DNA from: a virus
IMG/VR virus record: IMGVR_UViG_3300035670_001181
Coordinates: 1 to 24,956 of that record
Strand: one strand, 5' to 3'
Length of the DNA: 24,956 bases
Part shown: positions 12,612 through 16,929 of the stretch, in pieces
Numbering within the stretch: position 1 is the stretch's first letter
How the letters are laid out: the number at the start of each line of letters is the position of its first letter
Program-made: the position numbers and the translations under genes
The notes under the pieces: model-generated
Told to the model about the DNA's origin: nothing
The model's input: only the letters and a program-made list of their open reading frames with translations
Database searches by the model: none

Positions 12612-12917
12612 ATGGCCACCGTATTTACCTGGCACATCGCCAACATGGAGCGCGAGACCGCTGACGGGTTTGTGATGACCGCCCACTACACCGTCACCGC
12701 TGAAGACGGCACCTACAGCAGCGGTGCGTACGGGTCACTGGGCTTCGAGCGCCCGGACAAGCTGATCCCGTTTGCTGACCTGACCGAAGAGATGGTCATC
12801 GGCTGGGTCAAGGATGCGTTCGGCGCCGAGAAAGTCACCGAAATCGAAGCCGCCCTGCAGGCGCAGCTTGACGAGCAGCGTCATCCCAGCAAAGCCAGCG
12901 GGATGCCGTGGCAGTAG
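12612..12917 (+). CDS. Small conserved phage protein of unknown function
   Basis: This 101-residue protein reads TWHIANMERETADGFVMTAH near the start, followed by HYTVTAEDGTYSSGAYGSLG. I associate this pattern with small, mostly beta phage proteins that occur near structural or lysis genes. The second half is helical, with a tryptophan at GWVKDAFG. No enzymatic residues are apparent. The start ATG has no Shine-Dalgarno; instead the leader holds CCCACCATCACCC, similar to the leader of the previous gene. A virion or assembly role is possible from the location, but nothing in the sequence proves it. Confidence 0.65.
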   Translation: MATVFTWHIANMERETADGFVMTAHYTVTAEDGTYSSGAYGSLGFERPDKLIPFADLTEEMVIGWVKDAFGAEKVTEIEAALQAQLDEQRHPSKASGMPWQ

Positions 12918-12933: not shown

Positions 12934-13182
12934 ATGATCGAGCTGGTCGCTGCTGTTGCTGGGGCATCCATCAGCGTGGCTGCGATGGGCGCGATGGGCT
13001 TCAGCAAGCGCAATGACGAGGCGCGTGATGCCGTCATCCGGCTCACCGCTGCAGTGGAGCACATCGCCACGCAACTGGAGGTGCTGCATGGTGACATCCG
13101 CGCCGATCGTCAGGAGACCTTTAAGCGGCTGAATGGCGTTGAGCAGCGGGTGGCTACGCTAGAGGCACGCCCACACCGTTAG
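12934..13182 (+). CDS. Small membrane protein with helical tail, lysis region
   Basis: This 82-residue protein has one hydrophobic segment at residues 3-22 (LVAAVAGASISVAAMGAMG), followed by a charged helix to the end that looks able to form a coiled coil (heptad-like spacing in AVEHIATQLEVL and LNGVEQRVATLE). The layout resembles XhlA-type lysis accessory proteins and other small phage membrane proteins. It lies just before a second small membrane ORF and the endolysin gene, which supports a role in lysis, perhaps as a holin partner or antiholin. There is no direct proof of pore formation. The ATG is 16 bases after the previous stop. Confidence 0.6.
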   Translation: MIELVAAVAGASISVAAMGAMGFSKRNDEARDAVIRLTAAVEHIATQLEVLHGDIRADRQETFKRLNGVEQRVATLEARPHR

Positions 13183-13184
13183 TC

Positions 13185-13325
13185 ATGGACTTCCTGTCCC
13201 ATCCTGCTTTTTGGATTGTTGTTGCTGCAGCTAGCGAACTGATTGCCCTGTCGCCGCTGAAAAGCAACAGCATCATTCAACTGGTGTTCCAGATCCTCAA
13301 CCTGCTCAAAGCAAAAAAGGGCTGA
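13185..13325 (+). CDS. 46-residue membrane protein, possible holin or lysis accessory protein
   Basis: This short gene begins at ATG 13185, two bases after the previous stop, and encodes 46 residues. The N-terminal part (HPAFWIVVAAASELIALSP) is hydrophobic and long enough to span or enter the membrane once. A second amphipathic stretch (SIIQLVFQILNLLKAKK) leads to a basic end. Its position directly upstream of the endolysin suggests a lysis function. The last codons are GCA AAA AAG GGC TGA and contain a perfect A_AAA_AAG slippery heptamer in the correct phase, so a longer product with a 79-residue C-terminal extension is predicted. I do not recognise a characterised family. Confidence 0.65.
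   Translation: MDFLSHPAFWIVVAAASELIALSPLKSNSIIQLVFQILNLLKAKKG
13313..13319 (+). promoter_or_regulatory. Slippery site A_AAA_AAG at the end of the 46-residue membrane ORF
   Basis: The heptamer A AAA AAG sits in phase with the zero-frame codons GCA AAA AAG GGC TGA, the most efficient class of -1 slippery sequence known in bacteria. The stop is two codons downstream. The -1 frame is open from 13235 to 13558 and lacks ATG, GTG and TTG codons for the first part of the extension, so a slip here is the simplest way to translate it. A small potential hairpin (AGCG/CGCT) lies about 30 bases downstream; its role is doubtful. Confidence 0.6.
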
Positions 13326-13558
13326 TCCGGTTTGGCAAGCCTTTATGGGAGCGCCGCGCTGAGCAAGCCATTCGTCAATGGTGGTTTGAGCGCACGCTAC
13401 CGGCCAAGCTGGACAAGGCAGAGGCTGATTGGCATGTTGCGCAACCTGCAGCGCCGAAGCCGGTGATTACGCATGAACCGATCGACGATGAGCTGCAGAC
13501 CGGCGACAGCCGATTGCTAGGTGGTCCTATGAGCATCAAATCACCATGGTCAAGCTGA
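13319..13558 (+). CDS. -1 frame extension of the small membrane protein
   Basis: This open frame adds 79 residues after a -1 slip at A_AAA_AAG, giving a 124-residue fusion with the preceding 45 residues. The extension starts GLIRFGKPLWERRAEQAIRQ, is basic and tryptophan-rich at first, then has a proline/alanine linker (QPAAPKPVITHEPIDDE), and ends LLGGPMSIKSPWSS. Without it, 13326-13545 would be an unexplained gap in a tightly packed gene cluster. Its end overlaps the endolysin start by 13 bases. There is no ordinary start codon until deep in the frame, so independent translation is unlikely, although reinitiation at CTG 13322, which overlaps the TGA stop, cannot be excluded. Function unknown; a basic cytoplasmic tail on a membrane protein would fit. 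Confidence 0.55.
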   Translation, partial: GLIRFGKPLWERRAEQAIRQWWFERTLPAKLDKAEADWHVAQPAAPKPVITHEPIDDELQTGDSRLLGGPMSIKSPWSS

Positions 13559-14604
13559 GCGACCTGTTCCGGTACTACAAGCACGGCACGCCACATCAAA
13601 TGGCGGCCATCTCTGAATTGGAAGCCGAGCTGTTAAAGGTTGCGCCGGAATTGTTTACTAAGGACCAGCCGTGGTACAAGACCTGGCAGCAGGGCGGCAA
13701 GCTGCATAGCTATGAGGCAGCAGCAAAGCTGATCAAAGAGTTTGAAGGCTGCCACCTGTCGGCTTACCCAGACCCGCTCAGCGGCGGCGATCCCTGGACC
13801 ATCGGCTATGGCAGCACCAGGTACAGCGACGGCCGCAAGGTGCAGCGCGGCGACAAGATCACCGTGGTCGAAGCCGGCAAGCTGCTGGACCTAGAGGTTG
13901 AACGCATTGCTGAGAAGCTACGTGCAACGGTGCCGTTCTGGAATGCCATGAATGGCGATAAGCAGTGCGCCCTGATCAGCTTTGCCTACAACCTGGGCAG
14001 CGGGTTTTACGGCTCGACCGGGTTCGAGACGATCAGCCGCGGGCTGCGTGAAAAAGATTGGGATGCAGTGCCGGCCGCGATGCTGCTCTACAGGAACCCC
14101 GGCACCAACGTCGAGGCTGGGCTGAGGCGCCGGCGCGAAGCTGAGGGCAAGCTATGGGGCGAGGCTGCGCAAGCCTTGCCATACAAGGTGAAGCCCAGCG
14201 ATCCGTTCAGCACCAAGCTGTCGGCGCATTTCACCCTTGGCGAGTTTGCGCTAGGTGATCCCGCCCGCCGGTTTGTTGCCCAGCATCAGATCGACACCGC
14301 AGCCGAGCTGGCAGCGTTCTTGGAGCGTGTGCGCACCGCATTTGGCGGCAAGCGCATCACGATCACAAGCGGCTACCGTCCAGCGGCGATCAACCGCGCC
14401 GTTGGTGGCGCATCAGGCAGTGAACACCTCTACGACGCTCCCAGCGTGGGAGCTGTGGACTTTTACGTTGATGGCGCTGATATCAACAAGGTGCAGGCAT
14501 GGGTTGATCGTGAATGGCCGTACAGCGTTGGCTATGGCGCGGCCAAGGGATTTACCCATCTAGGCATCCGCAAAGGCCGGCCTAGGGTGCGCTGGGACTA
14601 TTAG
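13546..14604 (+). CDS. Two-domain endolysin: GH24 lysozyme plus M15-type peptidase
   Basis: This 352-residue enzyme should degrade host peptidoglycan at lysis. Residues about 57-215 are a GH24 (T4/lambdoid-type) muramidase with the catalytic glutamate E67 in EFEG, D76 in AYPDP and T85 in WTIGYGS. Residues about 225-350 resemble a zinc M15/DD-carboxypeptidase-like domain with SGYRP, then H294 and D305 in a SEHLYD to AVDF arrangement, and H338 in FTHLG as the third zinc ligand. All expected active-site residues are present in both domains. There is no signal peptide, so release should need a holin; the two small membrane ORFs upstream are candidates. The first 55 residues form an extra N-terminal helical region. 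Confidence 0.9.
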   Translation: MVKLSDLFRYYKHGTPHQMAAISELEAELLKVAPELFTKDQPWYKTWQQGGKLHSYEAAAKLIKEFEGCHLSAYPDPLSGGDPWTIGYGSTRYSDGRKVQRGDKITVVEAGKLLDLEVERIAEKLRATVPFWNAMNGDKQCALISFAYNLGSGFYGSTGFETISRGLREKDWDAVPAAMLLYRNPGTNVEAGLRRRREAEGKLWGEAAQALPYKVKPSDPFSTKLSAHFTLGEFALGDPARRFVAQHQIDTAAELAAFLERVRTAFGGKRITITSGYRPAAINRAVGGASGSEHLYDAPSVGAVDFYVDGADINKVQAWVDREWPYSVGYGAAKGFTHLGIRKGRPRVRWDY

Positions 14605-16038: not shown

Positions 16039-16929
16039 TCAATCGTCGGTTCCAAGGGGCGTGCCTGCCAGTGGATTGCTCATCAGCATACGGAGGCGCA
16101 TGATGCCGCGCTGCTCGATGTTGTGCAATCGTGTCTTGTTAATGCCGGTCATGCGCTCCAGTTCTGACCAGGTCATCGGCTGGCAGATCATGCGTGCTTT
16201 AAGGACTGTTTGCGTTGTCTCATCAAGGTATTTTGCGAAGTATTCCATCACATTTTGTATGTCTTGACGGATTGCAACGTCTTCTTGATTAGACGCAGGA
16301 TCTGCAATTGTTTCTGCAATGGTGTTGCTTTCAGAGTCTGAAATGTACTGGTCGAGGCTGGTGACGCGGTAGCTTTGCCGCAGCAGCATGGATAGGTCTT
16401 TGGGGTCCATGTCCAAATGCTGCGCTACTTGGCTGGTGCTAGGCGCTTCGCCCAATTGATGGCCGAGGTCTTGGATGGTGCGGTTGACCTTATACAGCAT
16501 CTCATGCACGCCAATCGGCAGCCGGATCATGGCGTCATAACTGATCAATGCCCTAGTAATGCCTTGCCGGATCCACCAGTAGGCATAGGTCGAAAACTTG
16601 TAGCCTCTGGTGGGGTCAAACAGATCCACGGCGCGAGACAGGCCGATATTGCCCTCTTGTATCAGGTCCATCAGCTCAAGGGTCTTGTTCTGCCGTTTGT
16701 CGTACTTGCGGGCGATGTGTACGACAAGCTGCAGGTTGGACTGAATGAATCGCTGCCGGGCGCGTTCGCCGCTGCGGATCTCACGCTGTTCGTCTTTTGT
16801 TGGCGGCCTTTCCAGTTGTTGCAGTTCTTTAAGCCTTGCAACGCGTCTGCCAAGTTGTATCTCCTGCTGCGGTGTCAACAGTGGATATTTGGCGATACTG
16901 TTGAGATAATCCTTGATAGAGTCCGACAT
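16039..16929 (-). CDS. Phage-encoded sigma70-family RNA polymerase sigma factor, cyanobacterial type
   Basis: This 296-residue protein should bind host RNA polymerase core and direct it to phage promoters. Region 1.2 is residues 1-31 (SIKDYLNSIAKYPLLTPQQE). Region 2 spans about 56-127, with LMDLIQEGNIGL and the -10 melting/recognition motif FSTYAYWWIRQGITRA. Region 3 is about 135-210 and region 4 about 223-283. The last is diverged: the helix-turn-helix reads MTWSELERMTGINKTRLHNI instead of the usual RERVRQIE pattern, so -35 recognition or activator contact may differ. Region 1.1 is absent. Similarity is to the cyanobacterial group 1/2 sigma style. The gene is the last of the - strand cluster and faces the + strand late genes end to end. 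Confidence 0.92.
   Translation of the reverse strand: MSDSIKDYLNSIAKYPLLTPQQEIQLGRRVARLKELQQLERPPTKDEQREIRSGERARQRFIQSNLQLVVHIARKYDKRQNKTLELMDLIQEGNIGLSRAVDLFDPTRGYKFSTYAYWWIRQGITRALISYDAMIRLPIGVHEMLYKVNRTIQDLGHQLGEAPSTSQVAQHLDMDPKDLSMLLRQSYRVTSLDQYISDSESNTIAETIADPASNQEDVAIRQDIQNVMEYFAKYLDETTQTVLKARMICQPMTWSELERMTGINKTRLHNIEQRGIMRLRMLMSNPLAGTPLGTDD

Follow-up and report, generated by a model that had tools for sequence, protein, structure and literature searches.

A predicted programmed -1 frameshift in a lysis-cassette membrane protein gene of cyanophages

Among DNA phages, the tail chaperones are the textbook example of programmed frameshifting. In the late genes lambda gpG/gpGT and P2 E+E', ribosomes slip by -1 at an X_XXY_YYZ heptamer shortly before a short open reading frame (ORF) ends, and in lambda a major short protein is thereby accompanied by a minor extended one. 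Among lysis genes, two products of a single gene are known from the dual-start holins of SPP1, 24.1/24.1* and 26/26* (PMC6316719), and expression of the lysis gene L of MS2 has been linked to frameshifting (Kastelein 1982, as cited in PMC5009743 and PMC10885494). A described frameshift in a holin or lysis gene of a dsDNA phage was not found in the open-access literature, a scope that leaves out most subscription journals, and no frameshift in a dsDNA-phage lysis cassette appears in the accessible part of the review by Atkins et al. 2016 (PMC5009743) or in two frameshift-prediction papers. Frameshifting and heptamers are already known, but a conserved case in a membrane protein of a dsDNA-phage lysis cassette is apparently new, as far as could be found.

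The window, that is, the whole stretch of viral DNA analysed here, comprises 24,956 bases, and S-CBS1 and S-CBS3, two Synechococcus siphoviruses, are among its relatives. On its + strand, a short ORF (13185-13325; ATG at 13185; PHROG 22542) encodes a 46-aa protein, and its final zero-frame codons are GCA AAA AAG GGC TGA. The slippery heptamer A_AAA_AAG (13313-13319, + strand) lies in phase for -1 slippage, one codon ahead of the zero-frame stop TGA (13323-13325, + strand), a spacing that is identical in 181 of 199 related loci. The last upstream stop of the -1 frame is at 13232-13234, and the frame is open from 13235 to a TGA at 13556-13558. After the slip, it supplies 79 codons (13319-13555; 13319-13558 with the stop, + strand) for a helical, W-rich extension with a C-terminal LGGPMSIKSPW. 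The entire frameshift gene occupies 13185-13558 on the + strand, and its predicted long form would have 45+79 = 124 residues. The earliest ATG, GTG or TTG of the -1 frame is a GTG located 48 codons past the slip. Upstream lies a conserved neighbour, an 82-aa protein with a membrane segment at its N-terminus and a coiled-coil-like remainder (12934-13182, + strand; PHROG 26178), and downstream is an endolysin (13546-14604, + strand; Phage_lysozyme and Peptidase_M15_3), the first 13 bases of which are shared with the extension. With the endolysin ORF beginning at 13546, the gap upstream of it is occupied by the -1 frame. The ending of the short ORF, the phase of the heptamer, the start-poor 79-codon frame and its gap-filling position had all been reported in a first-pass annotation of this DNA, and each is confirmed. 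Comparative sequence evidence, set out below, indicates that the gene is almost certainly decoded by programmed -1 ribosomal frameshifting.

The same annotation had counted this site as the second of its kind in the window, and the first also looks genuine. In the window's own tail-chaperone-like gene (505-1031), the ORF at 505-861 ends GCA AAA AAA GGC TAG, with the junction at about 849, and the -1 frame adds approximately 60 codons up to 1029-1031, before the tape measure. By its sequence, this looks like a genuine, ordinary frameshift of the G/GT type. Several other features of the window were observed. Just 5' of the lysis cassette, a DUF7936 protein is encoded at 12612-12917 (PF25590, E 1e-36), and DUF7936-like proteins occupy the equivalent position in the podoviruses S-B28 (L089) and S-CBP1 (L242). 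Between 10948 and 12561, successive small ORFs look like tandem paralogues because they have the motifs RRPKPPSLKEQA and IRRALEQLDD in common. An ORF for an RpoD-like sigma factor lies at 16039-16929 on the - strand, and a group 2 sigma factor is annotated at the matching place in S-CBS1.

Relatives of the frameshift gene were first collected from IMG/VR, where the extension protein, used as the sole query, yielded 107 loci, and the set was enlarged through scans with short-form, extension and podovirus alignments, one genome scan, and searches of phage records. Once identical sequences had been removed, 202 loci with both parts were kept, and clustering at 90% identity gave 118 clusters. Although the extension searches imposed no frame relation to the short ORF, the extension lies in the -1 frame relative to it in 202 of 202 relatives. 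An in-phase canonical X_XXY_YYZ heptamer is present 0-2 codons before the short-ORF stop in 199 of the 202 loci, against a background of 6 canonical heptamers per ~9,100 zero-frame codons outside the junction. Together, these figures exclude chance. Seven isolate genomes carry the arrangement: S-CBS1, S-CBS3, KBS-S-2A, S-EIVl and the podoviruses S-B28, 7B11-B and WH11-B. By comparison, among 14 relatives of the short protein without an extension, none has a canonical heptamer, and in L167 and L168 the short ORF leads directly into the endolysin start. A further homologue of the short protein, about 42 aa long and unannotated, was observed in the Microviridae genome MH572431 (L090, 1501-1629) from Ciona gut; it is possibly a candidate lysis gene of that genome.

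The heptamers themselves are informative. Among the 199 loci, A_AAA_AAG accounts for 185, G_GGA_AAG for 6, C_CCA_AAG for 5 and A_AAA_AAC for 3; the corresponding counts for the 118 clusters are 104, 5, 5 and 2, with 2 others. S-EIVl has the lambda-type G_GGA_AAG. The occurrence of four canonical kinds implies that evolution swapped shift-prone heptamers for one another while their phase was unchanged. Across clusters, the codon that precedes Lys-Lys specifies Ala, Gly, Pro, Ser, Val, Thr or Arg. All 100 clusters in which this codon is fourfold degenerate have A at its third position, whereas fourfold sites in the remainder of the short ORF have A in 15% of cases (binomial 1e-82, a value that ignores relatedness). 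The conservation of heptamer, phase and frame, the exchange of heptamers and their absence from the 14 extension-less relatives strongly support the earlier proposal that one gene yields two proteins, of 46 and 124 residues, by frameshifting. Non-canonical sequences stand at the junction in L021 (G_AAA_AAG) and in L052 and the near-identical L054 (A_AAG_AAG). The first-pass annotation had named one pattern as contrary to its reading, namely homologues in which the heptamer is lost and the downstream frame has a start of its own. This pattern occurs in one of the 202 loci, L251, a host-genome contig of Cyanobium sp. N5-Cardenillas that has no canonical heptamer and in which a GTG overlaps the stop (AAGTGA). 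There, the extension would be a separate, coupled gene, which suggests that evolution has switched between coupled genes and a frameshift arrangement.

Purifying selection acts on both parts. The short ORF has a dN/dS of 0.14 in the zero frame, and the extension has a median pairwise dN/dS of 0.149 in the -1 frame versus 1.26 and 2.23 in the other frames. The contrast recurs in the group typified by S-CBS1 and KBS-S-2A (0.201 versus 1.38 and 1.98) and in a small podovirus group (0.43 versus 0.93 and 0.99). These values are simple counting estimates from loci that share ancestry and are not independent, but the contrast is very large nonetheless. Stop codons in the downstream frame, the other pattern that would have spoken against the first-pass reading, number 0 in 5,025 codons. 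Both the site and the -1 frame are thus conserved among related phages, the comparison that the annotation had put forward. More than 100 clusters and all seven isolates agree in the arrangement, and purifying selection is strong in each frame. These findings refute the view that the two ORFs are really one, split by a mistake in sequencing or assembly, or that the gene is decaying and one of them is dead; the probability of such an artefact is negligible, even with a homopolymer at the junction of a metagenome-derived contig.

How ribosomes gain access to the extension can be judged from its boundaries. A stop of the -1 frame itself lies 3-7 codons 5' of the slip in 28 of 116 clusters, and in 87 of 116 ATG, GTG and TTG are absent through codon 15 after it. 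Taken together, the near upstream stops and the missing starts imply that translation must enter at or near the heptamer. Entry by termination and reinitiation, at a non-canonical or downstream start beside the short-ORF stop, would instead produce a separate protein and no fusion. An NTGA overlap yields a -1 relation too, the GTG of L251 overlaps its TGA in just this way, and the second codon past the slip is CTG in 82 of 116 clusters. However, this CTG is partly dictated by the TGA stop, and the other 34 clusters have CTA, TTA, TTG or another codon at the same place. A non-canonical CTG or ATC start after the slip was rejected, as neither is conserved across clusters. Existing annotations also appear to favour internal starts, since the extension is annotated from such starts as gp23 in S-CBS1 and gp22 in S-CBS3, and from a GTG in S-EIVl; in KBS-S-2A it is unannotated. 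S-CBS3 has kept A_AAA_AAG in addition to the internal ATG used for gp22, and a start at this ATG would cut away part of a conserved helix. Reinitiation has no need of an in-phase heptamer, of A at fourfold sites, or of swaps to C_CCA_AAG and G_GGA_AAG, and it is highly unlikely as the general route to the extension.

Transcriptional slippage, in which some mRNAs would gain an extra A, predicts a nearly identical protein outcome and draws on the run of six A residues found at the junction in most loci. Nevertheless, the codon phase is conserved and the A run is not lengthened, while loci with G_GGA_AAG and C_CCA_AAG keep the arrangement with only three A residues. An origin of the long form in the transcript is consequently judged extremely unlikely, and ribosomal frameshifting remains the preferred reading. 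Elements that might stimulate it were sought on both sides of the heptamer. A Shine-Dalgarno-like element 5' of the heptamer was seen in just 2 of 116 clusters, and RNAalifold analysis of the 3' region (33 and 30 sequences) returned weak stems with unconvincing covariation. Single-sequence folds are ordinary and, on average, slightly more stable than expected (mean z -0.72). Many phage frameshift sites are without a stimulatory element. The nearby stop codon, which a single codon separates from the heptamer in 181 loci, may on its own aid slippage.

The short form is predicted to contain one hydrophobic segment (~residues 7-25) followed by an amphipathic helix; its structure prediction used an alignment from which annotated-record rows were left out. 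It has no match to holin families in Pfam, NCBIfam or the annotated PHROG holins. Similarly, the extension has no match in Pfam, NCBIfam, PHROGs, PDB sequences or plasmids, and neither form gave a profile match to spanin families. No lipobox was found, and the predicted 124-aa product of the window has no cysteine. An AlphaFold2 model of the extension consists of a long helix followed by a strand, a short helix and a strand (pLDDT 83, pTM 0.39). In a Foldseek search with this model, the third match was S-PM2p159 (probability 0.99, E 0.036); the first two we take to be S-CBS3 gp22 and the S-EIVl protein, from their length, identity and accessions.

S-PM2p159, which has matches in 24 Synechococcus phage records, is assigned to PHROG 3316 (T4-GC 852). 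PHROG 3316 proteins are the products of single in-frame genes and have ~130 residues with a basic N-terminus and a hydrophobic segment, and cysteines surround the conserved motif in S-PM2p159 and some relatives. Their C-terminal pattern, KAIxDY...P.Y.EK..DGS.AQ.LLGGEMRLCAPW, aligns with KAEADW...P.VI.E.PID..LQTGDSRLLGGxMSIxAPW of the extension (hhalign E 7.6e-8 and 1.2e-6). On these profile alignments, the C-terminal half of the extension is homologous to the cyanomyovirus PHROG 3316 membrane protein. The N-terminus of S-PM2p159 did not align with the short ORF, which aligns with PHROG 22542. From the shared C-terminal pattern it follows that the frameshift-made product would have an in-frame counterpart that is laid out in the same way overall but has a different N-terminal membrane segment. 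Membership of the podovirus extension in the siphovirus extension family was considered on the basis of a suggestive motif and rejected, as the profile comparison was not significant. The -1 extension of podovirus S-B28 matches PHROG 6464 (T4-GC 410) with E 7e-4, and the cyanomyovirus proteins of T4-GC 410 (L243, 1273-1809; L244, 1267-1653) were observed to share ETGxFGxxGWS with it; T4-GC 410 and the podovirus extension are possibly a further branch of a similar domain.

Gene order connects both proteins to lysis. In 91 of 118 clusters an endolysin comes after the extension, and in 88 of 118 the short ORF is preceded by the 82-aa protein; this synteny supports the lysis-region placement given by the first-pass annotation. 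Distant homologues of the short protein stand beside lysozymes in P60, S-SRP01, S-CBP1, S-CBP42, S-CBS4 and DSL-LC07. Several PHROG 3316 members, too, occur near lysis genes: close to a lysin and an RlpA-like protein in S-PM2, a lysozyme in DSL-LC03, and endolysin and muramidase-like genes in MA01 and S-B68. In S-CREM1 the PHROG 3316 homologue is away from lysis genes. The endolysin of S-PM2 itself looks split (L354, 15534-16717), p153 having an endolysin-like N-terminus and a peptidase-like domain and p154 being a fragment of a lysozyme domain. From these genomic contexts, the short and long proteins probably act in lysis. With frameshifting still real, the pair could instead be non-lytic, serving for example in host takeover, superinfection exclusion or virion assembly, and lie beside the endolysin by happenstance. 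Searches linked no member to an established holin or spanin family, and in S-B28-like podoviruses the gene that follows is annotated as a small terminase or its equivalent rather than as an endolysin. In T7, this is the position of the holin gene 17.5. Lysozyme adjacency, however, recurs across unrelated genome contexts, and a non-lytic role appears improbable.

In the model that we favour, the cassette would be ordered as 82-aa protein, short/long gene and endolysin. The tRNA-Lys molecules on AAA and AAG of A_AAA_AAG would slip back one base, after which 79 codons would be read. The majority of ribosomes would stop at TGA and release the 46-aa membrane protein, a holin-like subunit, whereas a minority would make the 124-aa form, in which the identical membrane segment carries the W-rich helical extension with its LGGxMSIxAPW motif. 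The long form would co-assemble with the short form in the membrane, and the slip frequency would fix the short:long ratio and hence the amount of extension domain present. For this overall model, in which frameshifting yields a holin-like short form and a substoichiometric long form that act in lysis, we estimate a probability of about 0.7.

The specific task of the long form can be assigned with less assurance. Control of a holin pair through its ratio is plausible, but an envelope-acting long form fits about as well, and the proposal that the long form is specifically a substoichiometric holin modulator is tentative. Lysines that follow the membrane segment give it a positively charged flank, which hints at a C-terminus in the cytoplasm and at regulation. 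Conversely, cysteines flank the motif in S-PM2p159 and some relatives, which hints at a periplasmic location and at action on the envelope. On the latter reading, frameshifting is real and the long form is a spanin-like effector that disrupts the envelope with a periplasmic extension. The basic N-terminus, membrane segment and occasional cysteines of PHROG 3316 are as expected for a periplasmic C-terminus, and a spanin survey records P60, S-CBS4, S-PM2 and further cyanophages as spanin-less (PMC6139136), a listing that makes an envelope role worth testing. The window phage's predicted long form, for its part, has neither lipobox nor cysteine, its lysines speak for a C-terminus in the cytoplasm, the 82-aa neighbour is a rival candidate for an inner-membrane spanin, and some phages carry the short form without the extension. 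Overall, an envelope effector seems less likely than not. A wider version of this idea is a speculative long shot: the extension would be the outer-envelope-acting lysis domain missing from "spanin-less" cyanophages, made as a holin-anchored frameshift product in siphoviruses (perhaps also podoviruses) and as an in-frame protein in cyanomyoviruses, with slippage setting the ratio of hole-former to envelope-disruptor.

If the favoured model is true, frameshifting would have been put to a new use, the control by ribosomal slippage of the proportion between two lysis proteins. The arrangement also revises gene calls that were missed or wrong, both in well-known cyanophage isolates and across many metagenomic contigs. 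Moreover, the extension offers a conserved candidate for the domain with which picocyanobacteria are opened by their phages, which are recorded without recognised spanins. The model is directly testable because isolates with cultured hosts carry the gene.

The gene shares with lambda gpG/gpGT and P2 E+E' its character as a late gene with a -1 slip near the end of a short ORF and, with the lambda pair, a predicted major short and minor extended product. It differs from gpG/gpGT in preceding an endolysin instead of lying between the major tail protein and the tape measure, in encoding a small membrane protein, and in having no homology to it. The dnaX site likewise has A_AAA_AAG with a zero-frame stop close behind. 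The dnaX site is, however, flanked by a Shine-Dalgarno-like element upstream and a hairpin on the 3' side, neither of which was found here, and in dnaX shifting shortens the product, whereas here it would lengthen it. In MS2, frameshifting is also tied to a phage lysis gene, but MS2 is an RNA phage in which the coat-gene frameshift merely allows reinitiation at L, and no lysis-protein fusion is made. Like the spanins (i-, o- and u-), which are membrane-anchored lysis-cassette proteins in phages of two-membrane hosts, the window proteins belong to such a setting; unlike them, they have no lipobox or recognised o-spanin partner. The S-PM2p159 family matches the long form in having a membrane segment followed by a helix and LGGxMRLxAPW, and departs from it as a single in-frame gene with an unrelated N-terminal segment and, in part of the family, cysteines. 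The dual-start holins (lambda S105/S107 and those of SPP1) offer the parallel of one lysis-cassette membrane gene with two forms in a set ratio. Their N-termini differ through the choice of start codon, whereas in the gene described here the C-termini would differ through predicted frameshifting, and the holin activity is putative.
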